Of a DNA stretch of 64,000 nucleotides, positions 20,519 to 35,702 are shown piece by piece. The position numbers and the translations under genes are program-made. How positions within the stretch are numbered: position 1 is the stretch's first letter; every line of letters begins with the position of its first letter. The notes beneath the pieces are model-generated. The model did no database searches. It saw only the letters and a program-made list of their open reading frames with translations, and was not told where the DNA came from. Origin of the DNA: Opitutaceae bacterium (lineage in GTDB: Bacteria > Verrucomicrobiota > Verrucomicrobiia > Opitutales > Opitutaceae); the NCBI GenBank assembly GCA_028284235.1, contig JANQSC010000009.1, forward strand, positions 62,001-126,000. The letters run 5' to 3'.

Positions 20519-20538
20519 CGGACCCTGCCAGTTGGTTG

Positions 20539-20822: not shown

Positions 20823-20849
20823 TAACACACAACTCGCGAATAGTAGTCT

Positions 20850-21596
20850 CTATCGGGGTTTCCGAAACACGAGAAAGTGCTGCCACGGGAGGTCGTCTTT
20901 CGTCTCCACCCATTCGAAGCCGACGTATTCGAGCTCCTTTCTCGCCTGAGCCTCGCTCATCTTGTGTAGCGGTTTGATGGGTACTCTGGGATTTTCCGCT
21001 CGGTATTCCAGCAGGTAGACGACTCCGCCCGGACGGAGAGCGTCGAGTATCGATGTCATCATCTCATACGGATGAGAGAACTCGTGATAGGCGTCCACGA
21101 ACAGGACAGCGTCGATCGAGTTCTCCGGGAGTTCGATACTGTCGATCGATCCCAAATGCGGGCGCACGTTGTCCACGCCGAGCGCGTCCGCCTTGTTCTT
21201 CACGAAGTCCAGCATTTCTTGCTGGATATCGACGGCGAGTACTTGCGATTCTGGAAATCTAGCGGCGATGCGAAAGGAATAGTATCCCGAGCCCGCTCCA
21301 ATATCGGCGAGCGTCTGGCCGGGCTCCAAGTCGATCAAGGCGATCGCCTTGGAAGGAGCTTCCTCCGCTTCCCGCTCGTCTCGTTCGAGCCATCCGATCC
21401 CTTGGTGTCCCATCACCTGGGCGATTTCGCGTCCCAGATAATACTTGCCGATGCCGTCGCGGGTGCGCGTTCCCTCGCTGTAGTGGGAGTGTTCAGCAGA
21501 AGAGTCTTCCACCGCGAGTGAAACGGGAAGAGGCAACTCGGCGAAGACGACTATCGACGCTAGAAAAATGAGTACGGTGCGATCTTCCACGGCCAT
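20850..21596 (-). CDS. Exported class I SAM-dependent methyltransferase-like protein
   Basis: A hydrophobic N-terminus (VLIFLASIVVFAELPLPVSLA) suggests a signal peptide or membrane anchor. The segment YYLGREIAQVMGHQGIGWLE before the catalytic part is typical of a family of small exported methyltransferases of Planctomycetes, Verrucomicrobia and Proteobacteria. The Rossmann motif I is LADIGAGSGYYSF (about 97-109), followed by VLAVDIQQEML and the post-II motif VLFVDAYHEFSHP. 248 residues. The substrate is unknown, and how a SAM enzyme works outside the cytoplasm is unclear; the N-terminus may instead be a poorly placed start. It stands alone, with element A downstream. Confidence 0.82.
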   Translation of the reverse strand: MAVEDRTVLIFLASIVVFAELPLPVSLAVEDSSAEHSHYSEGTRTRDGIGKYYLGREIAQVMGHQGIGWLERDEREAEEAPSKAIALIDLEPGQTLADIGAGSGYYSFRIAARFPESQVLAVDIQQEMLDFVKNKADALGVDNVRPHLGSIDSIELPENSIDAVLFVDAYHEFSHPYEMMTSILDALRPGGVVYLLEYRAENPRVPIKPLHKMSEAQARKELEYVGFEWVETKDDLPWQHFLVFRKPR

Positions 21597-21798
21597 AAAT
21601 AACAGAACTTAGCGCCATTGTATACGATTGCGCGAGTGATATTTAAAATGGATTATATAATCCGGTCTCATTTTTGAGTTTACAAGCGGGGCTAGGGTAT
21701 ATACGTAAATTTAACCGGCATCCTTCTTATATATCCTATTTCAGGGTGCATCTTACTCCTACTCCCGACCACCCGATCCCTGTCTTTGCTCGATTTTC

Positions 21799-21840
21799 GA
21801 TTAAGATTAGGAGTATGATTAGGATTAAGACTAGGAGTAC
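21799..21840. repeat. TTAGGATTA-type short tandem motif
   Basis: GATTAAGATTAGGAGT at 21799 is followed by GATTAGGATTAAGACTAGGAGT at 21819, so one unit of about 20 bases is present twice with small changes. The same words recur at 57349-57432. The likely start codon of the following gene (21815) lies inside it. Confidence 0.6.
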
Positions 21841-22246
21841 GACAGTAAACTCACAGAAAGACTCCACTCAATTGCCCGAAGAAGTCATATTGGACCAGGA
21901 ACATGGACTCATCCGAATCAAATCGATCGGCGATGTGCCGACTTCGGAATGGAGAAAATCGATGGAGAAGGTGCTGGAGTTGAAAGAGAAACACCGGATC
22001 AATCGCTTGCTTATCGACTCGAAAGAACAGTTGAGCACTTCTGGATACAGCGAGATTTTCGAGTTCGCCAAATGGTTCCCGAAAGATATCAAATTGGCCT
22101 TGCTAGTGGAGGATGCGACTGGGGGTAGAGTGTTGTCCACCGAACCGAAGCAGCGATTTCTCGAAGCGATTGGCTTGCAGGAGAATATAGATGTCAAGTC
22201 GTTCGTAGACGAAGAGGAAGCGATGTCGTGGCTGGGGAATCAGTGA
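21815..22246 (+). CDS. Small SpoIIAA/STAS-like protein
   Basis: 143 residues from ATG 21815; an in-frame TTG at 21674 would give 190, but the extra 47 residues look non-coding. The conserved-looking part begins at PEEVILDQEHGLIRIKSIGD and runs through an alpha/beta pattern (IDSKEQLSTSGYSEIFEFAKWFPKDI in pieces, IKLALLVEDATGGRVL). The size and the strand-helix order resemble the SpoIIAA-like/STAS-like family, which binds small hydrophobic molecules or partners, but no catalytic residue is evident. It is more AT-rich than its neighbours. Its start lies in a repeated TTAGGATTA motif, so the true start is uncertain. No operon partner. Confidence 0.62.
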   Translation: MIRIKTRSTTVNSQKDSTQLPEEVILDQEHGLIRIKSIGDVPTSEWRKSMEKVLELKEKHRINRLLIDSKEQLSTSGYSEIFEFAKWFPKDIKLALLVEDATGGRVLSTEPKQRFLEAIGLQENIDVKSFVDEEEAMSWLGNQ

Positions 22247-22284
22247 ATCGATGTGTAACCGCGAGTTTGGATCTGTGAATTTGG

Positions 22285-22362
22285 AACCGCGAATTCACGC
22301 GAATAGACACGAATCAAATCCAGTATTTTAAAATTCGCGTCTATTCCCGTTCATTCGCGGTT
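22285..22362. repeat. 29-bp imperfect inverted repeat in a convergent gap
   Basis: AACCGCGAATTCACGCGAAT... (22285-22313) pairs with the complement at 22334-22362 with a few mismatches around a 20-base AT-rich centre. It fills most of the space between the STAS-like gene (+) and the LarA-like gene (-), both of which end here. It may act as a two-way terminator or be a dispersed palindrome. Confidence 0.65.
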
Positions 22363-22376
22363 TGTCCGAACCCGAA

Positions 22377-23705
22377 TTAGCTGCCGCGTTTTGTCGGCCA
22401 GGTTTGATTGCCGTCCGCGTCGAAGGTGATGGGCTGGGAGTCGCCATCGATCTCTAGATCGTCGCGGGATTCGATTTCGGGGAGATATGCGGTAGACATC
22501 CAGATTCGGTCGATTTCTTTTGTATTGGCGATTTGGATTATTTTGGCGCTGGCGTAGTCTTCTTGAATTACGCTTCGACAGGCGATCTCAATCGCTTGCT
22601 GATCCGATTCCGCGACGAGCGGAATTTTGGCGACGTTTGCGGTCCGGGCCGTGAGAGCGTTTGTGTAGGTACTGGAGAGATTTATTTTCTCGGCAGCGCG
22701 ACGCGTAATGACGTCCGCATTCCCGATACCAATGGCGTTTCCCTCGGTTGCACCGGTGAGGTCGCGGACGAGTATTTGTCCGATCTCGGGCGTGTAGTCG
22801 CGCTCGACGCCTGTAGCGGATCGACCGGTCACGTTGGAGTCCATGCCGCCCCCGCTCACGTCTTTTCCAATAGCGTCGACGATCAGGAGATCGACTTGAG
22901 GGACGAGAATGCGGCCCATGAGTCGTTTCGAGTAGACCAGCAGCTCTTTCTCGCGGTCGAAAAAGGAGGAAGCTGGGATCGCTTCGACTTTCGCCACTCG
23001 ATTGTAGGCGTTCTCGACGATGGCGATTCCTAGGAGGATCGGGGCTTTTTCAAGCGTGATCGCGGCGACTTCGGGGAGCACTTCGTGGAATCGATGAAAC
23101 CCGAGCTTGTGGACGCCGGAGGTGCCAATGTGTTTTCCGAGCCCGATCATGAGCATCTTGAGCAGACCGCTTTCGTAGTCGGCCGCGAAAGCGGTGTGGG
23201 CTTTGATGCGATTGCAGACGATAATGCCGTCCGACTCGAAGGCGAGCCGGTCGCAGCAGACTCTCGTTCCGCCTTCGACCGCGCCCAGCTCCACGACTTC
23301 CATGGAGGAACGGATGGGGGCTCCGAGACTTTCCTCAGTGAGGCCGAGGCTGGCGAGGACCGCGACTTGGCCGTCCGCGGTGGCGCCTCCGTGACTGCCC
23401 ATGGCGGGAACGATGAAGGGTTGGGCGCCCCATTCTTTGAGACGTTCGATCGTTTGTTTGAGAATTTGGACTTGGCCTTTTATGCCGCGGCTTCCCGCGG
23501 CGATGGCAATGCGCTTGCCGGTCCAATCATGGTTGGCGAACGGCTCGAGCTGTTGGCTAATTGCTGTATCCAGATCCGCTTCGACCTCTTCGGGGAAGCG
23601 TTGTCGGATCGGTATCAGCTCGGGCAGGACAAAGGGTTTTGTATCCGCGATTTTGGGCGCGATGTTCGCGAGAGTGAGACTAGTCTTATACGGTTTGTCG
23701 GTCAT
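22377..23705 (-). CDS. LarA/DUF2088-like protein (lactate racemase N-terminal domain family)
   Basis: 442 residues, cytoplasmic. The N-terminal half shows the nucleotide-binding-like signature IAIAAGSRGI and IVPAMGSHGGATADG, which mark DUF2088/LarA-type proteins; later segments ILVPQVDLLIVDAIGKDVSGGGMD and the conserved ICNRIKAHT-like piece (VCNRIKAHTAF) fit the same family. True LarA racemases need a nickel-pincer cofactor made by LarBCE, none of which are in the window, so racemase activity is not shown. The start ATG overlaps the aldolase stop by one base. Its place last in the glucarate operon suggests epimerising or oxidising a hydroxy-acid intermediate such as tartronate or glycerate (inference). 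Confidence 0.82.
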   Translation of the reverse strand: MTDKPYKTSLTLANIAPKIADTKPFVLPELIPIRQRFPEEVEADLDTAISQQLEPFANHDWTGKRIAIAAGSRGIKGQVQILKQTIERLKEWGAQPFIVPAMGSHGGATADGQVAVLASLGLTEESLGAPIRSSMEVVELGAVEGGTRVCCDRLAFESDGIIVCNRIKAHTAFAADYESGLLKMLMIGLGKHIGTSGVHKLGFHRFHEVLPEVAAITLEKAPILLGIAIVENAYNRVAKVEAIPASSFFDREKELLVYSKRLMGRILVPQVDLLIVDAIGKDVSGGGMDSNVTGRSATGVERDYTPEIGQILVRDLTGATEGNAIGIGNADVITRRAAEKINLSSTYTNALTARTANVAKIPLVAESDQQAIEIACRSVIQEDYASAKIIQIANTKEIDRIWMSTAYLPEIESRDDLEIDGDSQPITFDADGNQTWPTKRGS

Positions 23706-24481
23706 TAAGCGGAGGCGCTGGCGTCCTTGCTTGCAGCGACGAGCGCGTTCATTCCATTGGCGACCATGCCCCCGTCGGATCCCACCGCGACAAAGGTGTA
23801 GCCTTGTTGATAGAGGGTTTGAATTTCGTCCAGGGCGAAGCCGAGGATGCCGCAGGCTTTCCCGTGACGAGCGGCGGCTTCTCGCGTTTTCTTCGTGGCT
23901 TCGACGTATTTCGGATGGTCGAATTGGCGGGGTATGCCGAGCGACACGGACAGGTCCATGGGACCGATAAAGAGGACGTCGACTCCATCGACCGCGGCGA
24001 TCGCGTCGACGTTCTCAATCGCGGTGGGCGATTCGATTTGGGCGACGATGAGCGTGTTTTCGTGGGCGGATTCGAGTCGTTCCGCGAACTTGGCGCCGTA
24101 GCGGGCGCTTCGGTTCATGATGGCGACTCCGCGCGTTCCGTGGGGCGGATAGCGGGAGTAGGAAACGGCAGCCCGGGCTTCCTCGGCGTCGCTGATATTG
24201 GGAATCATGATACCGTGGACGCCGAGATCGAGAGCGCGTTTAAAATAGTCTGCGTTTAGCGATGAAACGCGTACGACCGGCGCGGCGCCCGTGCCTTCCA
24301 GGGCCATGAGTTGCTGGGCGAGCATTCCCCAGGAGCCGGAGCCGTGTTCCATGTCGAGTTGGCACCAGTCCAATCCGGATTGACCGGCGACTTCGGCGAG
24401 GAGAGGGGAGCCGGTGTTGAGAAAGGTGCCGATCAGCCGTTCCTTGGCCAGGGCGCGTTTTCTGAGAGCGAGTTCATTCAT
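23705..24481 (-). CDS. HpcH/HpaI-type class II aldolase (2-keto-3-deoxyglucarate aldolase-like)
   Basis: Metal-dependent pyruvate aldolase. The family signatures are CQLDMEHGSGSW, the substrate-site Arg in APVVRVSSLNADYFKRALDLG, GIMIPNISDAEEA, the metal-ligand Glu in IVAQIESPTAIEN and the Asp in LFIGPMDLSVSLG. 258 residues is the usual length. In context, after a glucarate dehydratase, it most likely splits 5-keto-4-deoxyglucarate to pyruvate and tartronate semialdehyde, as GarL does; other 2-keto-3-deoxy acids are possible. It is the middle gene of a three-gene - strand operon, with a 49-bp gap before it and a one-base overlap after it. Confidence 0.9.
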   Translation of the reverse strand: MNELALRKRALAKERLIGTFLNTGSPLLAEVAGQSGLDWCQLDMEHGSGSWGMLAQQLMALEGTGAAPVVRVSSLNADYFKRALDLGVHGIMIPNISDAEEARAAVSYSRYPPHGTRGVAIMNRSARYGAKFAERLESAHENTLIVAQIESPTAIENVDAIAAVDGVDVLFIGPMDLSVSLGIPRQFDHPKYVEATKKTREAAARHGKACGILGFALDEIQTLYQQGYTFVAVGSDGGMVANGMNALVAASKDASASA

Positions 24482-24530
24482 GAGGGGGTAGATCGCAAAG
24501 GATTTGAAAAATAGTGTATTTTAATTGTAA

Positions 24531-25814
24531 CTACCAACGGGTCGCTTCGAATTTCCATCCGGGTTCGATTTTCTGCATCTCGGCTTCGTCGTTGCGAAAC
24601 TCGAGCCCGCAGCGGAGGTAGTTCTGGTGGAGGCGTTCCAGGGCGTCGGTATCGATGGCGACGCCGATGCCGGGCGCGTCGGGGACGGCGATCGCCCCGT
24701 TTTCGAATTTCAGTTGTCCGCCCGCGACGATCTCTTCGGCCTGCCAGGGGTAGTGAGTGTCGAGGTCGTAGTCGAGCTGGGGGATGCAGGCGCCGAGGTG
24801 GACCATGGCGGCGAGGGAGATGCCGAGGTGGCTATTGGAGTGCATGGAGATGCCGCGACCAAATGTTTGGCAAATGCGGCACAGATCGAGACAGGGCTTG
24901 AGACCGCCCCAGTAGTGATGGTCGGTCAAAATGACGTCCTCGGAGTGGAGCGCGACCGCTCGCGGAATGTCGTCGAAGGACGTCGTGCACATGTTCGTGG
25001 CGAGCGGCGACTCGATGGCTTTTCCGACTTTGGCCATGGCTTCCTGTCCTCTGACCGGATCTTCGAGGTATTCGAGGACGGAATCGAGTTTCGTTCCGAT
25101 GCGAATTCCTGTCTCGATGCTCCAAACCGCGTTGGGATCGAGGCGCAGCGGCACGTCCGGGCCGAATGCGTCGCGGAGGGCGAACATTGCGGCGGCTTCT
25201 TCGTCGGGAGGGAAGACGCCGCCTTTGAGTTTGATCGACTGAAACCCGAAGGCGTCGATCATGGCTTGAGCTTGGGCGACGACGCCTTCCGGCGTTTTCG
25301 CTTCGAGTTGCCGGGCGGCGTCCCAGCCAGTGGCGTTGGGGTCCGTATCGAATTCGAGGGGACCGCCGGCGCCGCGCTCTTTATAGAAAAGGTAAGCTCC
25401 GAAAGGAACGCGCTCGCGGACGGCGCCGCCGAGGAAATCGCATACGCGCACTTCGAATCGCTTGCCCAGATAGTCGAGACAAGCGACTTCCAGCGCGCTG
25501 CGGAGGTGCACCCACAGTCGCTGGTCCCAGGGGCTGTCGCCGCGTTGCTCGTCCGGGGTTTCCAGCGCGTTCTGGGCAGCTTCGAGAAGTTGAGTCAATT
25601 GCAGCGGTTCGGAGCCGAGCAGTCGATCGCACAGGTGGTTGAGCGACTCGACCATCCCTTGCGGGCAAGGGGATTCGCTGATGCCGGTGAGCCCGTCTTC
25701 GCAGGCGATTTCGAGAATGACGCGCAGGGCGTAGGGAGCGTGCATGCCCGACGCGGCTCTCAATGGCGGGTCGATAGTGGCGATGGGGGTAACCGTGTAG
25801 TGGGTAATCTTCAT
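24531..25814 (-). CDS. gudD: Glucarate dehydratase (enolase superfamily)
   Basis: Dehydrates D-glucarate (or idarate) to 5-keto-4-deoxyglucarate. The protein follows the GudD pattern along its length: the acid/base Lys pair in FQSIKLKGGVFPPDEE, metal ligands in PLRLDPNAVW and LEYLEDPV, the TNM segment LATNMCTTSFDDI, and the His of the His-Asp pair in MHSNSHLGISLAAMVHLGA. 427 residues against about 446 in E. coli. It is the first gene of the operon with the aldolase and the LarA-like protein. A related dehydratase for another uronic-derived acid cannot be ruled out. Glucarate could come from oxidised glucuronic acid of polysaccharides. Confidence 0.85.
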   Translation of the reverse strand: MKITHYTVTPIATIDPPLRAASGMHAPYALRVILEIACEDGLTGISESPCPQGMVESLNHLCDRLLGSEPLQLTQLLEAAQNALETPDEQRGDSPWDQRLWVHLRSALEVACLDYLGKRFEVRVCDFLGGAVRERVPFGAYLFYKERGAGGPLEFDTDPNATGWDAARQLEAKTPEGVVAQAQAMIDAFGFQSIKLKGGVFPPDEEAAAMFALRDAFGPDVPLRLDPNAVWSIETGIRIGTKLDSVLEYLEDPVRGQEAMAKVGKAIESPLATNMCTTSFDDIPRAVALHSEDVILTDHHYWGGLKPCLDLCRICQTFGRGISMHSNSHLGISLAAMVHLGACIPQLDYDLDTHYPWQAEEIVAGGQLKFENGAIAVPDAPGIGVAIDTDALERLHQNYLRCGLEFRNDEAEMQKIEPGWKFEATRW

Positions 25815-26314
25815 AAAGGAGCAGAGTCACGTTGGGCGAAGTCGCGGGAAGGAGCGAGTAGAAAACTGAATACGGTCGGGAGGGTGTGCCTTTAGTGCAT
25901 CGCATATCGCGCTGACCCGCATAAACCACTGAAGCCACCCATCGCCTGTCTGCCTTTTAAGATTCGCGACAACGCAGAGTCCTTGAATCCAGGAAGAGCT
26001 TCATTCCGCGAAAAAACTGTACACGAAGACAGCGTCCCGAGACCCACTCAGGGCCAACCCTCCTTTGAAAATCCCCACTTAACTTTCCAACCTTGGAAAG
26101 TAAAGTGGGGATACGAGGGTTGGCAGTGACCGGCGATGAGCCAGGCCAAGCGCTCCGAACTATCGGAAGTCACCTGAGTGCATTAGGAGGATCAGGTCTG
26201 GGATTCGTTTTGAAATGAAGCCGCATCAAACGACACTTTAAAACACACCCCGGTTGGGAGGCGGGCGCTCATTTGGATTGCGAGCGCGGCAGAGAGCGGT
26301 TCAGATCGGTGGCC
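25815..26314. other. 500-bp divergent intergenic region with a long hairpin
   Basis: Lies between gudD (-) and a sulfatase gene (+), so both promoters should be here; I see no convincing -35/-10 pair. It contains a long hairpin (listed separately). No reading frame here looks coding: the only sizeable frame is the complement of gudD extended into the gap. Confidence 0.5.
26054..26123. repeat. Long imperfect hairpin
   Basis: CCAACCCTC (26054-26062) pairs with GAGGGTTGG (26115-26123); inside it, ATCCCCACTTAACTTTCCA (26071-26089) pairs with TGGAAAGTAAAGTGGGGAT (26094-26112) with one mismatch around a four-base loop. The stem is about 30 pairs with an internal bulge. It has no T run and lies in a divergent region. 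It may be a dispersed palindrome or a regulatory structure. Confidence 0.75.
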
Positions 26315-27781
26315 ATGATACTCCGATATTTTGCCATTGCCGCGCTTTTGCTTGCCCCGAATTTAAACGCGTCGCCAAACGTGGTTTTCTTTATCGCCGA
26401 CGATGTGAGCTGGAACGATTTCGGCTGCTATGGCAACGAAGGCGCTCGGACGCCGAATATCGACGGGCTCGCAGAGAACGGGATGCGCTTCACAAACGCG
26501 TATCTCACCGCTAGCAGTTGCAGTCCGAGCCGGGCGAGTATCGTGACGGGCCGGTATCCGCACAACAATGGCAAAGCGGCCGAGCTGCATCTGCCTATTT
26601 CCGATCACCTCCCTTGGCTCTCGGAAGTGCTGCGGGAGGGTGGCGACTACTACACGGCGCTCTCCGGCAAGTATCATATGAAGCGAGTGAATCCGCGCGA
26701 TACGCCGCCCTTTGATCACGTAGACGGCGGCCGCGTGGAGGGAAACCGCGGCGGCCACGCGAATTGGGTGTCGGTCACGCGGAACCGACCGAAAGATCGG
26801 CCGTTCTTCTTCTGGTTCGCCGCGAGCGACGCCCATCGCGGTTGGGACGCGGACGCGGATTGGCGACCGGACGAGTACGGTCCCAAGATCGATCCGCGCG
26901 TGGTGACGGTGCCGCCGTTTTTGGTCGACTCGCCGCAAACGCGTTCCGACTTGGCGTCGTACTACAACGAGGTGACCCGGTTCGACCATTTCATCGGAAA
27001 AGTCGTCGACGAACTCGATGACCAGGGTGTTTTGGAGGATACTCTGATCTTCGTGCTGGCGGACAATGGCCGTCCGTTTCCGCGGGCCAAAACGCGGCTG
27101 CACGATTCGGGAATGAAAACGGCGCTGGTGGCCCATTGGCCGAATGGAATCAAATCGCCCGCAGTTTCCGATTCGCTGGTGAGCGTGATCGATCTGGCCC
27201 CGACGGTGATCCGAGCAGCGGGCCTGAAAGTGGAGCCGACCTTTCAAGGCGTGGATTTGGGGCCGATTTTTTCCAATTCGGACAAGGACGTGCGTCGGTA
27301 TGCGTTTTCCGAGCACAATTGGCACGATTTCGAGGCCCTGGCCCGGAGTGTGCGTACGCAGACGCATCTCTATATTTTCAACGATCGTCCCGCGTTCGCC
27401 TGGGAAGGGCCGGCGGATTCGGTGCGATCGCCGTCGCACAAGGACTTGGTAGCGGGGCGCGACGCGCGGTCGCTCACGGCGGCTCAAGCGGAGGTGTTTC
27501 AAGCGCCGCGACCGGAGGTTGAATTGTACGATATCGCGAACGACCCGCATCAGTTGTACAACCTCGCGGGTCGGGAGGAGGTGTCGCTGGTGGAACGGAA
27601 GCTGGCCCGCGTCTTGGGACAATGGCGGAGAGCGACCGGGGATTCGGTGCCGGACAAAATTTCGGTGGACGAGTTCAGTCGCGAGACGGGGACTCGGGTG
27701 GTTGAGAACGGCGCGTTTCGCGGAGAAACCCCCGGCGAGTCGAAGGGCGCGGATCGGATCAATCGCTCGGGACCGAGGTAG
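26315..27781 (+). CDS. Exported type I (S1 family) sulfatase
   Basis: ATG 26315 is chosen over an in-frame upstream start at 26273 because MILRYFAIAALLLAPNLNA is a proper signal peptide. Formylglycine precursor Cys69 is in CSPSRASIVTGRYPHNNG, which together with SGKYHMKR resembles heparan N-sulfatase (sulfamidase)-like S1 enzymes; the metal site is FFIADDVSWNDFGCYG. 488 residues. The C-terminal VELYDIANDPHQLYNLA is also typical of the family. It is a single-gene unit converging on the ThuA gene with repeat element B between. Substrate not determined. Confidence 0.92.
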   Translation: MILRYFAIAALLLAPNLNASPNVVFFIADDVSWNDFGCYGNEGARTPNIDGLAENGMRFTNAYLTASSCSPSRASIVTGRYPHNNGKAAELHLPISDHLPWLSEVLREGGDYYTALSGKYHMKRVNPRDTPPFDHVDGGRVEGNRGGHANWVSVTRNRPKDRPFFFWFAASDAHRGWDADADWRPDEYGPKIDPRVVTVPPFLVDSPQTRSDLASYYNEVTRFDHFIGKVVDELDDQGVLEDTLIFVLADNGRPFPRAKTRLHDSGMKTALVAHWPNGIKSPAVSDSLVSVIDLAPTVIRAAGLKVEPTFQGVDLGPIFSNSDKDVRRYAFSEHNWHDFEALARSVRTQTHLYIFNDRPAFAWEGPADSVRSPSHKDLVAGRDARSLTAAQAEVFQAPRPEVELYDIANDPHQLYNLAGREEVSLVERKLARVLGQWRRATGDSVPDKISVDEFSRETGTRVVENGAFRGETPGESKGADRINRSGPR

Positions 27782-27794
27782 TGTAGGTTGAGGG

Positions 27795-28028
27795 TTTTGG
27801 GGACATCGCCCCGACACGGCCGGGGCTAAGATCCCCGTCCCTGCGGGCGGGGCCAGGATCGCTCCTACCGCGTTGCGGTATCCGCGGCAGGATTTTGTTT
27901 CAGGACAAAAAATTGAAAATCTTCACTCAACTTCGCCGGGGTCCTAGATGAGAGTCTTGGCGCCGAAGGCGATCTTGGCCCCGCCCGCAGGGACGGGGGT
28001 CCAGCGAGGAACGAGCGATGTCCAAAAA
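27795..28028. repeat. Palindromic repeat element B (two inverted arms, no gene)
   Basis: Begins TTTTGGGGACATCGCCCCGAC and ends GATGTCCAAAAA. The left arm carries GGGGCCAGGATCGCTCC and TACCGCGTTGCGGTATCCG, a stretch that is the near-exact complement of the right arm of element A (20700-20740). The right arm starts near 27960. The core between is short and AT-rich with no gene. It fills the gap between convergent sulfatase and ThuA genes. Confidence 0.85.
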
Positions 28029-28051
28029 CCAACTCGCCAATCGAATCCTGT

Positions 28052-28798
28052 CTACAATCGTCCGGCGGCCCAGAGCATGCCGCGGCTGACGATTTCCTGG
28101 AACTGGGGATTGGCGATGGTTTCGTTGGTGTGGCCGAAGGTCGTACCGAATACGCGGGCGTCGCCGTATTCATTTACCCAGAACACTGGGTGTGACTTGC
28201 CGGTTTCTTCGCTGGTGCCGGTCGCCAGGGCTTCGGCGTTGGGCCAGAGTTTGTCGATGATGTAAAGCTCGTCCATGGGGGACACCCAGTCGGACGGGAA
28301 GTCTTGCATGATGGGATGGTCCGACTGCGTGACGGTGACCGGATAGTTGCTTTGGTGGTCGTGGCGGCGAGTGGTGACGCCAAGAAACTCGCGCCAGTCG
28401 TCGACTTCGGCGGCGCGGTAGGTGTGCATGGCACAGTGTATCACGACTGCGGGTACGCCTTGCTTGTGGGCGTCGACGATTTTCGCGATGTAGGCGGGAT
28501 CCTGGGTGTTGGCGAAGCACTGGTTGTGGACGACGACGTCGTATTCGGCGGCCCAGTTGGGGTTGTTGAAGAGCTTGGACTGGAAATCCTTGGAGTCGCC
28601 GCCTTCGTGGACGATGGACCAGGAAACGTCCGCGTGCTGGTCGATTCCGGTGGTGAGTTCTTGTTTCTGGTAGTCGTAGTCGTGGCAGCAGCCGCCGGTG
28701 ATGAGGAGGGCATTGAGCGGCGCGTCCGGTTCGGTTTGGGCGCAGCCCGCCAGGAAAAGGGCCGCGACGGCTAGGGTGAATTTTTCGGAGAGTTTCAT
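28052..28798 (-). CDS. ThuA-domain lipoprotein
   Basis: Lipoprotein signal with lipobox AALFLAGC (Cys about 19). The remaining 230 residues are a ThuA (class I glutamine-amidotransferase-like fold) domain: NALLITGGCCHDYDYQK, YDVVVHNQCFANT, VVIHCAMHTYR and RVFGTTFGHTNETI. ThuA proteins are tied to trehalose and other sugar use, but their chemistry is not settled. The usual catalytic triad of amidotransferases is not obvious. It is 19 bp downstream of a sulfatase gene on the - strand, so the two form an operon; a role in handling a desulfated sugar is likely. Confidence 0.85.
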   Translation of the reverse strand: MKLSEKFTLAVAALFLAGCAQTEPDAPLNALLITGGCCHDYDYQKQELTTGIDQHADVSWSIVHEGGDSKDFQSKLFNNPNWAAEYDVVVHNQCFANTQDPAYIAKIVDAHKQGVPAVVIHCAMHTYRAAEVDDWREFLGVTTRRHDHQSNYPVTVTQSDHPIMQDFPSDWVSPMDELYIIDKLWPNAEALATGTSEETGKSHPVFWVNEYGDARVFGTTFGHTNETIANPQFQEIVSRGMLWAAGRL

Positions 28799-28817
28799 AA
28801 TGTATAGAGAAACGGGA

Positions 28818-30287
28818 TTATTTCGATTCGAGCCAGTCTCTTTGGCGTTCGATAAAGTACGGGTTGATGTCGTAGGAGGAGCCGGGCGCGAGCGGCGCGG
28901 CTTTATTGGGAATGTGGGCTTTGTGCGCTTCGATGATTTCTTGTAGGTCCGTTCTGTGGGAGAGATTGGTCCATTCGTTGGGATCTTCGATCATGTCGTA
29001 CAGTTCTTCCGATCCGTCTTCGTATCGAGTGTAGCGATACCGCTCGGACCGAATCGAGTAGTTGACCGGCCCGTAGGCGATTATGGCCGGGCCCTCGGTG
29101 GGCGTGGATACGTCGTTGAGCTGCGGAACGAGGCTGCGCCCTTCGTTCATCGTATTCTCGGGTAGACCGCACAGCTCCACCATCGTGGGATACATGTCGA
29201 TGAGTCCAACCGGCTGGGCGCAGCGGCGATTGGGCTCGATGCCAGGGCCGGCGATGATGAGCGGAACACGGGTGTTGCGCTCCCAGATTGCTTGCTTGGC
29301 GAATCGGTTTTTTTCCCCGAGGTGATAGCCGTGGTCGGACCAGAGAACGATGAAAGTGTTGTCGGCGTAGGCGCTGGACTCGAGGGCGTCGAGCACTTTG
29401 CCGACTTGATGGTCCACCCAGGTGATGCAAGTGAGGTAGGCTTGCACGGCCCGTTTCCATTCGCCGCTTTCGATGAGCTCTTCGGTGGTGGGCATCATGG
29501 GGACGTCGGCGACTCGTTGGCCCATCTCGGAAATGTCGTCGAAGTCATTTCGCTTGTAGGGCGGTGTTTGAATTGTATCCAAAGGATGGTGTTTGAACCA
29601 ATCGGGAGGCGTGTACCAGGGCACGTGCGGGCGGAGGAATCCGACGGCGAGAAAGAAGGGTTTGTTTTGCGGGTGGCCGAGTTTTTCCACGGCCCAAGCG
29701 GCGACGTTGTGATCGGTCATGGCCTCGTCGTTGTCGGGGTAGGCGCCCCAGTCGGTTTGGGTGCCGCCGATTTTGTGGTCGTACCAGTCGGGATCGAATT
29801 TGAAGCGTTTTTCGGGTTTGGGGCCGAACCAGGCGAAGCGGCCGCCGTATTCGTCGAAGGTGTTCATAGCGTCGCCACCGTGGTAGAGTTTTCCGACGCC
29901 GAGCGTGCGGTATCCGTGTGACTCGAAATAGTCGGGAATGAGGGCACATTTCTCGGTGAGCGGGTGGCTCGACTTCAAGTCCTGATCGTTGATCTGAAGG
30001 TAGATTCCGGTCGATGCGGGGTAGAGGCCGGTGAAGATCGAGGCACGGCTGGGACCGCAGATCGGGGCTTGGCAATGGGCGTTTTCGAAGAGGACGCCTT
30101 GGGCGGCGAGCCGGTCGATGTTGGGGGTTTTGGCATTGGGGTGGCCATCGAGGCAGCCGAGCCAGTCGTTCAAGTCGTCGATGGCGATGAAGAGGACGTT
30201 GGGTTTGGCGTTCTGGGCGAAGGCGAGCGGAATGCTCGCAGCGAGGCAAAGCGTGGCGAAGAGGCGGCCGAGAGAGCGTTGTTTCAT
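28818..30287 (-). CDS. Exported iduronate-2-sulfatase-like type I sulfatase
   Basis: Signal peptide at residues 1-24 (LFATLCLAASIPLAFA). The opening NVLFIAIDDLNDWLGCL and the formylglycine site Cys77 in CGPSRASIFTG, plus YPASTGIYLQINDQD, GVGKLYHGGD and VGFLRPHVPWYTP, place it with iduronate-2-sulfatase-like (S1_7 type) enzymes. The second metal ligand pair is in LWSDHGYHLGEK. 489 residues. It is the first gene of a two-gene operon with the ThuA lipoprotein and diverges from a PhoD-like gene. Enzymes of this group remove 2-O-sulfate from uronic acids or fucose; which one applies here is unknown. Confidence 0.93.
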   Translation of the reverse strand: MKQRSLGRLFATLCLAASIPLAFAQNAKPNVLFIAIDDLNDWLGCLDGHPNAKTPNIDRLAAQGVLFENAHCQAPICGPSRASIFTGLYPASTGIYLQINDQDLKSSHPLTEKCALIPDYFESHGYRTLGVGKLYHGGDAMNTFDEYGGRFAWFGPKPEKRFKFDPDWYDHKIGGTQTDWGAYPDNDEAMTDHNVAAWAVEKLGHPQNKPFFLAVGFLRPHVPWYTPPDWFKHHPLDTIQTPPYKRNDFDDISEMGQRVADVPMMPTTEELIESGEWKRAVQAYLTCITWVDHQVGKVLDALESSAYADNTFIVLWSDHGYHLGEKNRFAKQAIWERNTRVPLIIAGPGIEPNRRCAQPVGLIDMYPTMVELCGLPENTMNEGRSLVPQLNDVSTPTEGPAIIAYGPVNYSIRSERYRYTRYEDGSEELYDMIEDPNEWTNLSHRTDLQEIIEAHKAHIPNKAAPLAPGSSYDINPYFIERQRDWLESK

Positions 30288-30477
30288 GCGTGGAAATCTG
30301 GGGTAAGCGGTTGCGCGCGGGATTCGGATCGGCGCGGTGGCAATGGCTCAATTGATGGGTGTGGGCGCGGATGGGAGCAATTCTATTGTGACGCTCTCAT
30401 GAAATTTGAGATTGCCCTCTGGGGCGAATTGGGGAGCCTTTGGATTCTCAGTTTTCGCCCGCATCCCCCTCTTTAAA

Positions 30478-31893
30478 ATGAAATCCTTCTCTCTCATTCT
30501 CCTCGCGAGCGCTGCTTTGGCGGCGACCTCGTGCGCCCAGCAACCCGACGGCCCCCGCATGGCGAACGGAATCAAGATTGGAGAAGTCGATCAAGATTCC
30601 GCTATCGTTTGGATGCGCTTGACGCAAAACGAGACCTATCGGCTCGACGGCGAAACGTGGAGCAAGGACGACGAAGCGGTTCCGGACGGGCTCACGCTCG
30701 GGGACATGCAGCACAGCGCCATGGGAGCGGAGGGCGAGGTTCGGGTAACGTATTGGCCGGAATCGAATGAAAGCGCGACCCGCTCCACGGATTGGATTCG
30801 TGTCACGCCCGCCCGCAACTTCAGCGCGGCGGTGACGCTGGAGGATTTGTCTTCATGGACGGAGTATACGCTCAAGGTGGAAGGTCGGCCCGTCGGCGCG
30901 TCTCGGCCGAGCGTGGAACTGGCGGGTGGATTCCGCACGGCCCCGCGTCCGGATCAGGCGGAGCCGGTACGCTTCACGCTGGTGACCTGTCACGATTTCC
31001 CGCGGCGGGATGACTTGATCAACGGGCATTACATCTATCCGGCGATGCTGGAAGCGGTCGACCCGGACTTCCTGGTCGCGGCGGGCGATATCGAGTACTA
31101 CGACAAGCCGTTTCCCTGGGCGAAGACGGAGGAGCTCGCTTACTACAAGTGGGATCGCTTGTTCGGCCTGCCCAATTTTCGGGAGTTCTATCGGCAGGTG
31201 CCGGGCTACTTCATGAAGGACGACCACGATCTCCTCAAGAACGACTGCAACCCAGGGGATACCTATGGCGAGCTGACTTGGGATCGAGGAATCGAGATTT
31301 TCAATGAGATTTTCCCGATGGGTGAGCTGCCTTACCGGACCGTTCGCTGGGGCTCGGATTTGCAGATATGGATGATGGAGGGGCGCGATTACCGGACTCG
31401 TGTCGAGGTGCCGGATGGTCCGGACAAGTCAATTTGGGGAAAGACTCAGAAAGCCTGGTTCTATAAGACGTTCAATGAATCGGACGCGGCATTCCGAATC
31501 CTAATCAACCCGAATCCCGTGGTCGGTCCGGACCGGGAGAACAAGAAGGACAATCATGCAAATAAACCCTACACTCACGAAGGAGACGAGATCCGGGCAT
31601 TCATGGGCAAGCAGAAGAACGCTTTCATGCTCAACGGCGATCGTCACTGGCAGTATGTGACTGTGGATCGCGAAACGGGCGCTCGCGAGTACTCGTGCGG
31701 GGCGGGGTCGGACATTCACGCGGGTGGATTCAAATACGAGCTGCGCACGGACGAGCATCGATTTCTCCGGATCAAAGGCGGGTTTCTCAGTGTCAGCGTC
31801 GATCGCAATGAAAACGGGAAGCCCCGAATCGCCCTCCGCCACCACGACGTCCACGGCGACGTGGTCAACGAGGACATTTTCCTGGCGGAGTAG
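30478..31893 (+). CDS. PhoD-like metallophosphatase, predicted lipoprotein
   Basis: ATG 30478 is chosen over 30406 because MKSFSLILLASAALAATSC is a lipoprotein signal with Cys20. An N-terminal fibronectin-like part (about 25-145) precedes the PhoD catalytic domain: FTLVTCHDFPRRDD, DPDFLVAAGDIEYYD, GYFMKDDHDLLKNDCNPGD and the late MLNGDRHWQYV give the metal ligands. 471 residues. A sulfatase gene diverges from it and a Gfo/Idh/MocA gene follows, repeating the order at 8013-12761. A role in glycan or sugar-ester breakdown is more likely than phosphate starvation response. Confidence 0.88.
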   Translation: MKSFSLILLASAALAATSCAQQPDGPRMANGIKIGEVDQDSAIVWMRLTQNETYRLDGETWSKDDEAVPDGLTLGDMQHSAMGAEGEVRVTYWPESNESATRSTDWIRVTPARNFSAAVTLEDLSSWTEYTLKVEGRPVGASRPSVELAGGFRTAPRPDQAEPVRFTLVTCHDFPRRDDLINGHYIYPAMLEAVDPDFLVAAGDIEYYDKPFPWAKTEELAYYKWDRLFGLPNFREFYRQVPGYFMKDDHDLLKNDCNPGDTYGELTWDRGIEIFNEIFPMGELPYRTVRWGSDLQIWMMEGRDYRTRVEVPDGPDKSIWGKTQKAWFYKTFNESDAAFRILINPNPVVGPDRENKKDNHANKPYTHEGDEIRAFMGKQKNAFMLNGDRHWQYVTVDRETGAREYSCGAGSDIHAGGFKYELRTDEHRFLRIKGGFLSVSVDRNENGKPRIALRHHDVHGDVVNEDIFLAE

Positions 31894-31997
31894 ACGGGCC
31901 GAGTCTGAAAGGGCGGAGAAATCTTGTCCAAATCTCTCCGTTGACGTCGGAAATCCCAACTAGAATTACCCAAACACACCTAAAACTCTAACAATAC

Positions 31998-33359
31998 ATG
32001 AATAGAAGAAACTTCGTAAAAGGGAGCGCCGCGGCTGCGGGCTTCATGGTACTGCCCAATTGGGTAATTGGAAACGCGCCGTCGCCCAACGGCAAATTGC
32101 GCATGGCTCAGATTGGCGCGGGCGGGCGTGGCTCTGCTCACTTGGCGGGCTACGCGACAGAGGATATTGTCGCCCTGTGCGACGTCGACGATGTCCGGGC
32201 GGCGAAAGCCTACGAGAATCACCCGAACGCCAAGCGTTTCAAGGACTACCGAAAGATGTTCGACCAGTTGGCGGGCAAGATCGACGCGGTTTCGATCGCG
32301 ACTCCCGACCACATGCACTATCCGATCGCCAAATGGGCGCTCGAGCAGGGCATCCACGTTTATTGCGAAAAGCCATTGGTCCGTACGATTTGGGAAGCGC
32401 GCGAGTTGAAGAAAGCGGCGGCCAAGGCGGGCGTTGTCACCCAGATGGGCAACCAAGGCCACACGCACGAAGGATTGCGCTACATCAAGGAATGGACACG
32501 GGCCGGCGTGATTGGCGACGTCGTCGAAGTGCTGCACTGGACGAATCGCCCGATCTGGCCGCAAGGGGATATCAAGCGCCAGAATCAACCCGTACCCGCG
32601 ACGCTCGACTACGATCTCTGGCTCGGCGTGGCTCCCAAGAAATCCTTCGACAGCAAGATTGTTCCCTTCGCCTGGCGGGGCTGGAAAGACTACGGCTGCG
32701 GCGCGGTCGGCGACATGGCTTGCCACATTATGGACTCGTCTTTCTCGGGACTCGATCTCGGCATTCCGGTCGAAGTGGAAGCCAGCGCTTCAGGCACGCA
32801 CGCGGAGACCTTTCCTAAGGCGAGCACCATCGACTTCGTGTTTGCCGACAAGAAAGGTAAGAAAGCGCCGAAAGTCACTTGGTACGACGGCGACCGGGCT
32901 CCGGACCTCGCCAAGATCAACGGCGTTGAAGAGGACTTTTTTGGAATGGAGACGATGTCGAATGGACGCAAACGTCAGAAGAATTCCAGCGGCACCTTCA
33001 TTATCGGAGAAAAAGGCACGATTTGGACGGATACCTACAGTTCGTCGATTCGCGTGTATCCAGACGACTTCTTCAGAGAGCTTCGCTCGAGCAAGGCCCT
33101 GCCGCCAAAAACGCTGGAGCGCGTCAAAGGCGGGCCATTCAAGGAGTTCACCGAAGCCATCAAAGCGGGCAAACAAGCGGGATCGGACTTCAGCTACGCT
33201 GCCGACTTTACGGAAACGGCATTGCTCGGACTGGTCGCGATCCAGGCGGGCGAGCGCATCAAGTACAACGCCAAGAAGATGCGCGTGACCAATAGCAAGG
33301 AAGCGAACAAGTATTTGACGACTCAATACGACTACAAGAAGGGATTCATCCCCTCCTGA
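31998..33359 (+). CDS. Tat-exported Gfo/Idh/MocA family oxidoreductase
   Basis: Starts MNRRNFVKGSAAAAGFM, a twin-arginine signal. Rossmann motif MAQIGAGGRGSAHLAG, then ALCDVDD, IATPDHMHY, the active-site CEKPLVRTIWEARE and MGNQGHTHEGLRYIKEW. The last two segments are nearly the same as in the copy at 11409-12761, so the two are paralogues. 453 residues. Family members oxidise or rearrange sugars with bound NAD(P). It is 104 bp after the PhoD-like gene and is closed by an intrinsic terminator. It probably acts on sugars released by the neighbouring sulfatases. Confidence 0.9.
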   Translation: MNRRNFVKGSAAAAGFMVLPNWVIGNAPSPNGKLRMAQIGAGGRGSAHLAGYATEDIVALCDVDDVRAAKAYENHPNAKRFKDYRKMFDQLAGKIDAVSIATPDHMHYPIAKWALEQGIHVYCEKPLVRTIWEARELKKAAAKAGVVTQMGNQGHTHEGLRYIKEWTRAGVIGDVVEVLHWTNRPIWPQGDIKRQNQPVPATLDYDLWLGVAPKKSFDSKIVPFAWRGWKDYGCGAVGDMACHIMDSSFSGLDLGIPVEVEASASGTHAETFPKASTIDFVFADKKGKKAPKVTWYDGDRAPDLAKINGVEEDFFGMETMSNGRKRQKNSSGTFIIGEKGTIWTDTYSSSIRVYPDDFFRELRSSKALPPKTLERVKGGPFKEFTEAIKAGKQAGSDFSYAADFTETALLGLVAIQAGERIKYNAKKMRVTNSKEANKYLTTQYDYKKGFIPS

Positions 33360-33387
33360 TCGGAAGAACAGTCGAGATAATTTTCAC

Positions 33388-33419
33388 GGGGATCGCGGCA
33401 AGCGGTCCCCTTTTTTTTT
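33388..33419 (+). terminator. Rho-independent terminator after the oxidoreductase gene
   Basis: GGGGATCGC (33388-33396) pairs with GCGGTCCCC (33402-33410), with one G-U pair and a five-base loop, followed directly by nine T residues (33411-33419). It lies 28 bp after the stop at 33359. Confidence 0.9.
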
Positions 33420-33433
33420 GATTAGAATTTGGG

Positions 33434-33510
33434 TTTTTGGACATCGCCCCGACTGCGTCGGGGCTAAGATCCCCGCGTTGCGGGGCCAGGATCGCCTGCG
33501 GCGCCAGGAC
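33434..33510. repeat. Left arm of element C
   Basis: Contains TTTTTGGACATCGCCCCGAC, the palindrome CCCCGACTGCGTCGGGG, GGGCTAAGATCCCCG, GGGGCCAGGATCG and GGCGCCAGGAC, in the same order as the left arms of elements A and B. Confidence 0.85.
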
Positions 33511-33615
33511 ATTGAACAGGTGAACGGCAAATTTGGTGGAAAATCCTCTCTCTAGTTGTCGTCCTGATCCCTTGATTCTTCTGGAAGGGAGTCGAGCGGA
33601 CTGTAATATGCAATC

Positions 33616-33987
33616 ATGGAAACCAACAAATTAACTGAATTGATCATTAAGGCTGCATACCAGGTTCACAATGAGCTGGGTACTGGATATTCCGAGAAAG
33701 TGTACGAAAACGCCATGGTGATTGCACTTGGCGATCTAAATCTCAAAGTGGATCAGCAAGTACCGCTAAAGGTCCGTTTTCGGGGCAAAATTGTAGGAGA
33801 CTATATCGCGGATATTATTGTTTCGGATACAGTTGTTGTCGAACTGAAGACCGTGGGAGCACTGATATCGGAACATCAGGCTCAATTGATAAATTATCTG
33901 AAAGCGACTCGAATGAACACTGGTCTACTCGTCAACTTCGCTAAGAAACGACTCGAGATCAAACGAGCCTTCTCAAATTTCCATTGA
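33616..33987 (+). CDS. GxxExxY protein (PD-(D/E)XK nuclease-like)
   Basis: 123 residues, cytoplasmic. The naming motif is Gly24-Glu27-Tyr30 in LGTGYSEKVYENA. The nuclease-like core is Asp66 in YIADIIV followed by Glu77 and Lys79 in VVVELKTV, then EHQAQLINYLKAT and GLLVNFAKKRLEIKR, all typical of this family (PDDEXK_3 type). The biochemical role of GxxExxY proteins is not established. The gene is intact, AT-richer than its surroundings, and bounded on both sides by inverted copies of a palindromic repeat that elsewhere in the window has no gene. It ends six bases before the right arm. Confidence 0.9.
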   Translation: METNKLTELIIKAAYQVHNELGTGYSEKVYENAMVIALGDLNLKVDQQVPLKVRFRGKIVGDYIADIIVSDTVVVELKTVGALISEHQAQLINYLKATRMNTGLLVNFAKKRLEIKRAFSNFH

Positions 33988-33991
33988 ATCA

Positions 33992-34106
33992 GAAAAGGTC
34001 CTTGCGGCGCAGCCGATCTTGGCCACGCGGAGCGTGGATCTAGCCCCGATCCCGTTAGGGACCCCGACGGAGTCGGTGGCTATGTCGGGGCGATGTCCAA
34101 AAAAAA
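33992..34106. repeat. Right arm of element C
   Basis: Reads as the complement of the left-arm type: GTCCTTGCGGCGC, CGATCTTGGCCACGC, GATCTAGCCCCGAT, CCCCGACGGAGTCGG and finally GTCGGGGCGATGTCC with a following A run. It is longer than the left arm because it keeps the extra AGCCACCGAC-type module also present in element A. Confidence 0.8.
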
Positions 34107-34133
34107 CCGTTTGTCTAAGTCTCATTTCCGGCG

Positions 34134-35702
34134 CTACCGCCTATTGCCGGTGTTTTCCCACCAGCCTCTGGGCGGGGCCCAGTTTTCCTCGAGAAATTCG
34201 GCGTGGCTTTTCTCCAGTTGCGGCATGTCTACTTCCCGAATTTTGACTTCGTTTTTGGCATGCTCGATGGCGTCGTAGTTGGGATTCGCGTACGGGTAGG
34301 TAGCGCCGACTTCTTCGAGCCAGTCATCGAGCTTGGCTTTGAGCGATTGAGCGAGATCCGGGTAGATGGAAACGATGTTCGTTTGCTCGGTCGGGTCGTT
34401 GGAGAGGTTGTATAGCTCGCTTCTGCGGTCTTCGTAGTAGTAGATGTACTTCCAGTCGCCATCGCGAATGATGGACGAGGGCTCGCCGCCTTGGTTCCCG
34501 TAGTGTGGATAGTGCCAGTAGAGATTCCGCTCCGGGATGGAGCCGCCATTGAGGAGAGGGGCGAGGCTGACGCCGTCGAGATGCTGTTCCGGCAATAGCG
34601 GAAGTCCCGCGAGTTCGAGCAATGTAGGGAAAAAGTCGTTACCGATCACGGGCGTATGCGACACGGTTCCCTGGGACGGCGAGCCGGGCCATTTGATGTA
34701 GAACGGCTCGCGAATACCACCCTCCCATTGTCGGCCCTTGCCGCCGCGGAGGGGAAGATTGGAGGTCGCTTTACCATCGCCGGCGGAGACGCCGCCGTTG
34801 TCGGAAGTGAAGACGACGATGGTGTTGTCCTCCAATCCGAGTCGGTCGAGGGTATTGAGCACGATTCCGACGGCGTCGTCCATCGCCTCGACCATGCCGG
34901 CGTAGAGCGGGTGGTCCTGGACTTGGCGGACGGGAGTGGTACGGTCGACGATGAAGCGGGCTTGGGCGACGGGTTCAGCGGTCGCTTTGGCGCGGTACTT
35001 TTCCCAAAGGGCTTTGGTGGTTTGTATGGGAGCGTGGACGTTGTAGAAGGACAGGTAGGCGAGGAAAGGCTCGTCATTGTGAGACTCGATGAAAGCGGCG
35101 GTTTCTTCGCCGAGGCGGAGCGGTAGGTATTCACCGACCGGACCGTCTTCCATTTTCGGGTTTTCGTAAGGCGAGAAGAAGCCGCCTGGAGGGCTGCCTC
35201 GATGATGTCCGCCGACGTTGATGTCGAAGCCGTGGTCTTCGGGGAAGGAACCTTCGCCACCGAGGTGCCACTTGCCGGCGAAGAAGGTCTTGTAGCCGGC
35301 GTCTTTGAATGCTTCCGCCAAAGTAGTTTCGTCGTGAGGGAGGCTTCGGGCGTAGGCGGGCGGGAGGAGTTTCGTATTGCGTTTCCAGTCTTCGCGTTCA
35401 GGGGCGCCGATGTAGTTAGAGATGTCGACGCGGGCGGGGTACTTGCCGGTCATGAGGCTGGCTCGCGAGGGACTGCACACTTGGCAGGTAGCGTACCCTT
35501 GCGTGAAGCGCGTTCCCTCGTTGGCGATTCGGTCGATGTGCGGACTTTCGTAGAATGGACTGCCTTCGACGCTGAGATCCCGCCAGCCAAGGTCGTCGGC
35601 AAGGATGAAGAGCACATTGGGTTTGCGTTCTTCGGCGAGGGCTCCGCAAAGGGAGCCGAGCGTGGCGAATACAGCGAGAGTACGGGTAAGTCGGGGACGC
35701 AT
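34134..35702 (-). CDS. Exported type I (S1 family) sulfatase
   Basis: Start set at ATG 35702 where MRPRLTRTLAVFATLGSLCGALA forms a signal peptide (in pieces: basic start, then hydrophobic core); the open frame continues upstream to 35828 through a palindrome and is not likely translated. Metal site LFILADDLGWRDLSVEG; formylglycine precursor Cys76 in CSPSRASLMTGKYPAR; GKWHLGGEG and FTSDNGGVSAGDG complete an arylsulfatase A-like active site. 522 residues. It converges on the oxidoreductase gene with element C between them. No operon partner; upstream of it is a strong palindrome that ends the pilin operon. Confidence 0.93.
   Translation of the reverse strand: MRPRLTRTLAVFATLGSLCGALAEERKPNVLFILADDLGWRDLSVEGSPFYESPHIDRIANEGTRFTQGYATCQVCSPSRASLMTGKYPARVDISNYIGAPEREDWKRNTKLLPPAYARSLPHDETTLAEAFKDAGYKTFFAGKWHLGGEGSFPEDHGFDINVGGHHRGSPPGGFFSPYENPKMEDGPVGEYLPLRLGEETAAFIESHNDEPFLAYLSFYNVHAPIQTTKALWEKYRAKATAEPVAQARFIVDRTTPVRQVQDHPLYAGMVEAMDDAVGIVLNTLDRLGLEDNTIVVFTSDNGGVSAGDGKATSNLPLRGGKGRQWEGGIREPFYIKWPGSPSQGTVSHTPVIGNDFFPTLLELAGLPLLPEQHLDGVSLAPLLNGGSIPERNLYWHYPHYGNQGGEPSSIIRDGDWKYIYYYEDRRSELYNLSNDPTEQTNIVSIYPDLAQSLKAKLDDWLEEVGATYPYANPNYDAIEHAKNEVKIREVDMPQLEKSHAEFLEENWAPPRGWWENTGNRR

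Follow-up and report, generated by a model that had tools for sequence, protein, structure and literature searches.

GxxExxY genes are usually carried between inverted arms built from a short repeated word, or iteron, and this arrangement recurs in many phyla. The arms and the gene are one unit, and gene-less inverted pairs with the same words are dispersed through genomes that carry the matching protein. Because different branches of the protein family have different words, the pattern suggests that the protein reads the repeats, which it may help to spread or keep.

The window, the whole 64,000-nt stretch of Opitutaceae DNA analysed here, holds one gene-carrying element and two gene-less relatives, with the following features:

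33434..34103, + strand: whole gene-carrying element, with a 20-nt perfect terminal inverted repeat and an inverted-flank score of 64
33434..33510, unstranded: left arm, read from the sequence, which pairs with the right arm
33616..33987, + strand: GxxExxY (PDDEXK_3) gene, a 123-aa ORF, assigned from profile matches, alignment and an AlphaFold2 model
33998..34103, unstranded: right arm, whose conserved blocks match the left arm in reverse complement, with the end GCGATGTCCAAAAA
20539..20822, unstranded: gene-less element with the same ends as the window element, TTTTGGACATCGC ... GCGATGTCCAAAAA
27795..28028, unstranded: gene-less element with the same ends, the final GCGATGTCCAAAAA lying at about 28028
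Conserved residues of the window protein: E24, D63 and E73-x-K75, in the numbering of alignment A1

The perfect complementary pair joins 33434-33453 to 34084-34103, 630 nt apart, and weaker pairing extends inward from it to 33510 and 33998. The left arm runs TTTTT, GGACATCG (33439), CTAAGATC (33464), GCCAGGATC (33485) and GCCAGGAC (33503), with mini-hairpins between the blocks. An earlier note on this DNA had described the gene as enclosed by inverted copies of a palindromic repeat and had pointed to two elements in the window with the same ends but no gene. The enclosure is borne out: in gapped local alignments of 450-nt flanks, the window gene (64) is the sole one of 37 non-overlapping window ORFs with an inverted-flank score of at least 34. 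Both gene-less elements are likewise present, and GGACATCGCCCCGAC occurs in the window at exactly four places, 20543, 27801, 33439 (+) and 34084-34098 (-). The description of the arms holds only in part; they are truly inverted, but each consists not of one palindrome but of short blocks (GGACATCGC, AAGATC, CAGGATC and CAGGAC) separated by mini-hairpins that vary among copies. In this element, the iteron spacers would have grown into the mini-hairpins. Folding of the 673-nt stretch 33434-34106 as single-stranded DNA gave z = -11.6 relative to 20 shuffles, and a search of window positions 20000-35000 against Rfam (E 0.1) returned no match. The neighbours of the element are two convergent ORFs, one oxidoreductase-like (31998-33359) and one sulfatase-like (35828-34134), both named by inspection.

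Throughout the 6.13-Mb genome, the end sequence that marks the window class, TTTGGACATCGC, is found at 19 places and the reversed pattern at one. By eye, 17 of the 19 ends fall into about 11 elements, one of them with a gene, and the other two (L144, L145) are without a partner in the stretch inspected. The reading of a gene-carrying element with gene-less derivatives, as put forward in the earlier note, is supported. The window also contains a stretch of ≈380 nt (25873-26257) with further copies, 78-91% identical, on several contigs of the same genome, and within it a 20-nt inverted pair encloses a loop of 2 nt.

The window protein contains the GxxExxY motif and matches TIGR04256 (GxxExxY) at 137.3 bits against a cut-off of 35 and PF13366 (PDDEXK_3) at 134.3 bits against a cut-off of 22; NCBIfam and Pfam (E 0.001) gave nothing beyond these two families. 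The putative catalytic residues are nearly invariant among 167 GxxExxY proteins, with E24 and K75 present in all, D63 in 166 and E73 in 163. The AlphaFold2 model has a pLDDT of 96.9, and its best PDB match in Foldseek is SSO0001 (4ic1; E 2.6e-4, TM 0.56 by query), which we take to be a Cas4 protein. The GxxExxY protein shares the PD-(D/E)XK nuclease fold with this nearest PDB structure, and it has a weak Cas4 match in PADLOC (E 0.0053). Cas4 nucleases have an Fe-S cluster. Unlike Cas4, GxxExxY proteins are 113-123 aa long, and the window protein has no cysteine and thus no Cas4-type Fe-S cluster.

Six PF13366 genes are found in the source genome, four of which sit within one inverted arm pair, each pair differing in sequence. 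Besides the window locus (L005), these are L001, with CACGAAA words, L003, with ACAGGAT and TTGAT words, and L006, with a 35-nt perfect pair that contains three CGCGAAT words. The remaining two genes (L002 and L004) are flanked, by eye, by complete gene-less palindromic copies in direct orientation without a single enclosing arm pair; their inverted-flank scores are 25 and 35, the latter value coming from a palindromic stretch.

The same arrangement is common beyond this genome. Among 61 genomes of the source family, Opitutaceae, TIGR04256 is present in 52, and 43 of the 52 have two or more matches among the matches listed. Inverted arms (score of at least 34) enclose 74 of 92 distinct GxxExxY genes from the source genome and the family. 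The same score is reached by 0.6% of dinucleotide shuffles and 4.7% of cross-pairs, and by 3 of the 33 other ORFs of these loci. This set of 92 comprises the six source-genome genes and the best-scoring places among the matches listed, a choice that favours intact genes. Excluded from it were L036 and L076, each with a short flank, L099 and L101, which lack the G..E..Y/F motif, L009-L011 and L039, which are duplicate extracts of the L005 and L002 loci, and identical proteins. In public GTDB genomes from many phyla, 48 of 75 scored genes have arms at the same threshold (mononucleotide shuffles, 0.3%; cross-pairs, which share motif classes, 9.6%). These loci are the best 80 of 586 confirmed, less five with a flank under 200 nt, and, having been found by the single peptide pattern LGPGLLES[AV], they represent one subfamily. 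Their titles include Chloroflexota, Planctomycetota, Acidobacteria, Bacteroidota, Proteobacteria, cyanobacteria, a Methanosarcinales archaeon and others; the archaeal loci scored 43 (L182) and 19 (Methanothrix, L159). Below the threshold lie 18 of the 92 genes and 27 of the 75. The expectation that GxxExxY genes elsewhere would have the same arms is thus only partly right, as the genes have arms of their own but the sequence class differs. Decayed gene copies, some with internal stops, also occur in the genus.

A de novo search recovered the words independently of any class. At 135 of 167 genes it found a 7-mer that recurs on either side in inverted orientation; 0.12% of mononucleotide shuffles reach this level, and the same test read in direct orientation gave 27 of 167. 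None of the 37 window ORFs passed; the window gene itself fails (score 6.6) because hairpins separate its blocks. Each arm is an array of a 7-8 bp word, usually with three per side and a period of mostly 8-10, and the words mostly fit CRCNRAN (CACAGAG, CACGGAG, CACGAAG, CACTAAT, CACTGAT, CGCGAAT, CGCGGAA, CACGAAA and others). At least two CRCNRAN words stand on each side of 113 of the 167 genes, and 142 of the 226 arms of these genes have three. When the outermost arm sequences are compared, iterons agree at 95% and spacers at 54% within an element, and at 75% and 35% between elements, so the iteron is kept more than pairing alone would ask. In the megaplasmids of two strains of Pseudoalteromonas shioyasakiensis (L359, L360), CACAGAG elements occur in repeated tandem-like copies.

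The identity of the word follows the protein tree. For the 121 of 167 genes that carried a CRCNRAN label, the last base required 6 changes on the tree, compared with a mean of 27.5 with shuffled labels (minimum 22). Position 4 required 24 changes (48.7 when shuffled) and position 5 required 16 (30.5), and position 2 showed no tree signal, with 23 changes compared with 26.2. The tree was a quick one without a mixture model, and the test also scores as agreement any class that genes have in common by descent. Since arms and gene are inherited together, the agreement shows first that both form one unit.

Gene-less pairs provide a comparison at the level of whole genomes, in which a triple array counts twice. 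The CACTRAT pair, CACTRATNNNCACTRAT, occurs 595 times in the 61 family genomes and its reversed control once. The 14 genomes with the cognate clade hold 540 of these pairs, none of them being at zero, and the 47 other genomes hold 55, with 34 zeros and 28 of the 55 in one 67% complete genome. The clade was delimited at 139 bits to a CACTAAT-class protein (L084), a cut chosen after both lists were seen; the genomes next under it (G000 at 135 bits, G044 at 127 and G020 at 121) have zero CACTRAT pairs. The CACRGAG pair, CACRGAGNNCACRGAG, occurs 1620 times (control, 9). The earlier note had allowed that arms spread equally in genomes lacking the gene would make the association one of chance; instead, the nine genomes without TIGR04256 contain 9 CACRGAG pairs and the 52 with TIGR04256 contain 1611. 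Ten of these 52 are without any CACRGAG pair, as expected if they hold other classes. The source genome has zero pairs of either kind, its genes having other classes. Compared with the other 38 gene-bearing genomes, the 14 CACTRAT-clade genomes have somewhat more CACRGAG pairs as well as more CACTRAT pairs (one-sided p 0.046 and 5e-8, respectively), so part of the CACTRAT signal may be general repeat richness. A made-up CACAGAG pair had no match in 5,426 E. coli genomes (E 0.01).

Elements are present in some genomes and absent from others at the same place between conserved genes, which shows insertion polymorphism; presence and absence were read from gene order, with intergenic divergence blurring the junctions at base level, and the comparison fits gain or loss alike. 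An element between atpG and atpA (named by inspection) is common to G000 and G069. The corresponding interval is just 48-62 nt, with no gene, in G048, G061, G062, G066 and G067, and it contains a different insert of 424 and 427 nt in G063 and G068; this comparison left out G064 and G065. The site of the window element in G062 is 226 nt long and has no GxxExxY gene, and the gene-less element at 20539 is absent, by eye, from its site in G069, G048, G061, G062 and G063. At the site of 20539-20822, G066 (L321) and G064 (L322) have a different insert with palindrome-like ends. Outside the family, a GxxExxY element separates fabD from fabG in a Sphingomonas record but not in S. paeninsulae. In Bacteroides finegoldii, such an element lies between radA and a gene for an FAD-dependent protein; Parabacteroides lacks it, and the Phocaeicola site contains another ORF. 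A gene-less pair between fcl and gmd is common to B. ovatus and B. finegoldii and absent in Phocaeicola. The B. finegoldii and Phocaeicola records filed as plasmids (NZ_OY725952 and sisters) carry radA and housekeeping genes and look like chromosome contigs. The comparison of strains envisaged in the earlier note thus yielded element-free sites by gene order but not target duplications, which in 118 elements were not above cross-pairs, one element having 6 identical bases.

The atp element also allows its parts to be compared between genomes. The genes of G000 and G069 differ by dN 0.059 and dS 1.09; in the left arm, 26 of 26 iteron bases are identical, compared with 1 of 4 spacer bases, and in the right arm a few iteron bases have, by eye, changed too. 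At this site, then, the spacers drift, whereas words and protein are conserved. Other orthologue pairs gave dN and dS values of 0.004 and 0.012 (L027/L048), 0.004 and 0.16 (L093/L095), and 0.13 with saturated dS (L016/L049). Gene-less copies of one class have their iterons in common but, by eye, usually not their loops; they thus give no instance of an iteron pair newly copied, and no transposition event was observed. In G033 (L264-L277), a MITE-like repeat with ≈20-bp imperfect ends (by eye) has an iteron palindrome inside it, mostly of the CACAGAG class with one to three iterons per side, and of other classes at about the same place in L275 and L276. We considered these near-identical copies as recent copying of an iteron pair and rejected this, as the repeated unit is the larger MITE-like sequence around the palindrome.

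Of the known systems, REPIN/RAYT is the closest in arrangement. In both, one enzyme gene lies beside its own class of inverted repeat and gene-less inverted pairs are dispersed elsewhere, and several repeat classes occur per genome, each with its own enzyme, as REPINs are described in excerpts of PMC3116915. The RAYT enzyme, however, is a Y1 (HUH) transposase, whereas the GxxExxY enzyme belongs to a PD-(D/E)XK nuclease family. This agrees with the distinction from REP/RAYT drawn in the earlier note, the matches being TIGR04256 and PF13366, with no Y1 (HUH) transposase. The repeats differ as well, a REPIN being made of REP palindromes and the GxxExxY repeat being an array of 7-8 bp iterons. REP palindromes have a conserved tag such as GTAG (abstract of PMC3733652), and no palindrome with a GTAG-like tag was seen in the arms, which read by eye as CRCNRAN or GGACATCGC/CAGGATC blocks. 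By analogy, GxxExxY elements appear to work like REPIN/RAYT systems, but they are not members of that group, their enzyme being unrelated. Inverted ends and the coexistence of gene-bearing and gene-less forms, together with presence and absence at orthologous sites as in mobile elements generally, recall insertion sequences and MITEs. Unlike insertion sequences, however, the elements have neither a DDE nor a HUH transposase among their Pfam/NCBIfam matches, they give no sign of target duplication and their gene-less interiors are, by eye, unconserved; we rejected a classical DDE insertion sequence or MITE on the target-site result for the 118 elements. In the open-access literature searched, we found no account of a GxxExxY gene with its own iteron arms; GxxExxY is mentioned there just incidentally, the iteron strings appear only in unrelated work, and nothing was found on PDDEXK with inverted repeats and MITE, on PDDEXK with extragenic palindromic, or on PDDEXK_3.

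A further parallel is the intervening sequence (IVS) of 23S rRNA, in which a small gene lies between inverted terminal repeats (428 nt in Coxiella) and which is discussed as a possible transposition remnant or mobile element (excerpts of PMC4990558). GxxExxY elements likewise frame a small gene with inverted terminal repeats. The IVS with its S23/IVP gene, however, is located in 23S rRNA and encodes a four-helix-bundle protein, whereas the GxxExxY elements examined are flanked by protein genes and their product has a nuclease fold; the window element stands between protein ORFs, and its gene is PF13366, not PF05635. The different inserts of G063 and G068 occupy the same atp intergenic site as the GxxExxY element of the source genome. 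In G068 (L240) an intact 23S_rRNA_IVP gene (PF05635, 64.8 bits) lies, by eye, between inverted GGAAGT-type iterons, and in G063 (L235) a frame-broken 23S_rRNA_IVP-like gene has inverted GGAAGT-type iterons; by eye, the atp site of G062 resembles a remnant of the IVP insert without its gene. PF05635 is present in 51 of the 61 family genomes, and it is absent in 7 of the 9 without GxxExxY but in only 3 of the 52 with it. Among 30 IVP loci (L323-L352), of which the 9 without the motif used were left out, 13 of the 21 scored have inverted arms (mononucleotide shuffles, 0.16%; cross-pairs, 4.3%), built of repeated short words of kinds other than those of GxxExxY. The inverted arms of IVP genes thus tie the architecture to the 23S rRNA intervening sequences.

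We think it probable that GxxExxY elements form a partnership like that of REPIN and RAYT, in which a PD-(D/E)XK nuclease is coupled to its own inverted iteron arrays and acts in trans on gene-less pairs. That the protein recognises its own iterons is strongly implied by the patterns in the sequences; that it moves the gene-less pairs in trans is a step we infer. The nuclease would bind its own iterons, would cut or nick at inverted iteron pairs and would act in trans on the gene-less pairs, which would be copied to new intergenic sites or kept, a role that would parallel the one thought for RAYT enzymes on REPINs. The missing target duplications, the unrelated loops and the strong purifying selection count against the step from recognition to movement. 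A wider proposal, possible but held more tentatively, would make these proteins sequence-specific nucleases with an evolvable code, in which residues that vary among clades would set CRCNRAN positions 4, 5 and 7, and each clade would maintain inverted iteron pairs throughout its genomes and mobilise them in trans. The unrelated four-helix-bundle IVP family would be a parallel system, and one-gene iteron elements would make up a large unrecognised class of repeats in bacteria and archaea.

Binding useful to the host would account for part of the same evidence. The arms and gene-less pairs would then be operators, terminators or chromosome-organising sites, spread by MITEs, gene conversion or slippage. 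The atp site favours this, with a dN/dS of about 0.05 and iterons that are conserved, and purifying selection with vertical inheritance there means that a host function fits as well as a selfish element; the pairs inside another repeat in G033, the variation from 1 to 3 iterons per side and the tandem copies in Pseudoalteromonas point the same way. We nevertheless regard it as unlikely, given nearly invariant nuclease residues, whole gene-bearing elements that are present or absent between conserved genes, and decayed copies in the genus, some with internal stops. A selfish element acting at the level of RNA, like the 23S rRNA IVS, whose arms would pair in the transcript and be tolerated or processed by RNase III while the protein was dispensable for spread, seems rather improbable to us. 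Several elements do sit between co-directional genes (atp, fab, radA and fcl-gmd), although the window element is between convergent ORFs, and the IVP-like genes with their own inverted iterons at the atp site, one intact and one frame-broken, and the arms at 13 of 21 scored family IVP genes would suit it. Stem pairing, however, would need both iterons and spacers to match, whereas they do so at 95% and 54%, and the iteron class tracks the protein clade. Very improbable is a common intergenic repeat that merely happens to lie beside the gene. Cross-paired flanks do score above shuffles, so motif classes are common near GxxExxY genes, and a score of 34 is likewise reached by 3 of the 33 other ORFs at these loci; against this stand the inverted repeated words at 135 of 167 genes, arms at 0 of 36 other window ORFs, the CACAGAG pair without a match in the E. 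coli genomes and the class specificity.

Its own iterons give a testable partner to a family that is annotated by motif alone and that occurs across many phyla, often with several genes in one genome. The partnership with a nuclease would also explain the dispersal of inverted repeats such as CACAGAG, CACGGAG, CACTAAT and CGCGAAT, on which the open-access literature searched gave us no explanation. If the protein reads its iterons, the members of this family would be small sequence-specific nucleases that come, as a natural series, with their targets.

Two proteins had no match in PHROGs (E 0.01), and one query protein had none in 50,697 phage records (E 1e-5). The control genomes of Corynebacterium glutamicum, Lactococcus lactis and Sulfolobus acidocaldarius have matches above the PF13366 cut-off and below that of TIGR04256. 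In viral contigs, three loci (L353-L355) encode GxxExxY relatives, with inverted-flank scores of 51, 48 and 92 from flank sizes that differ from those of the main test and have no control of their own.
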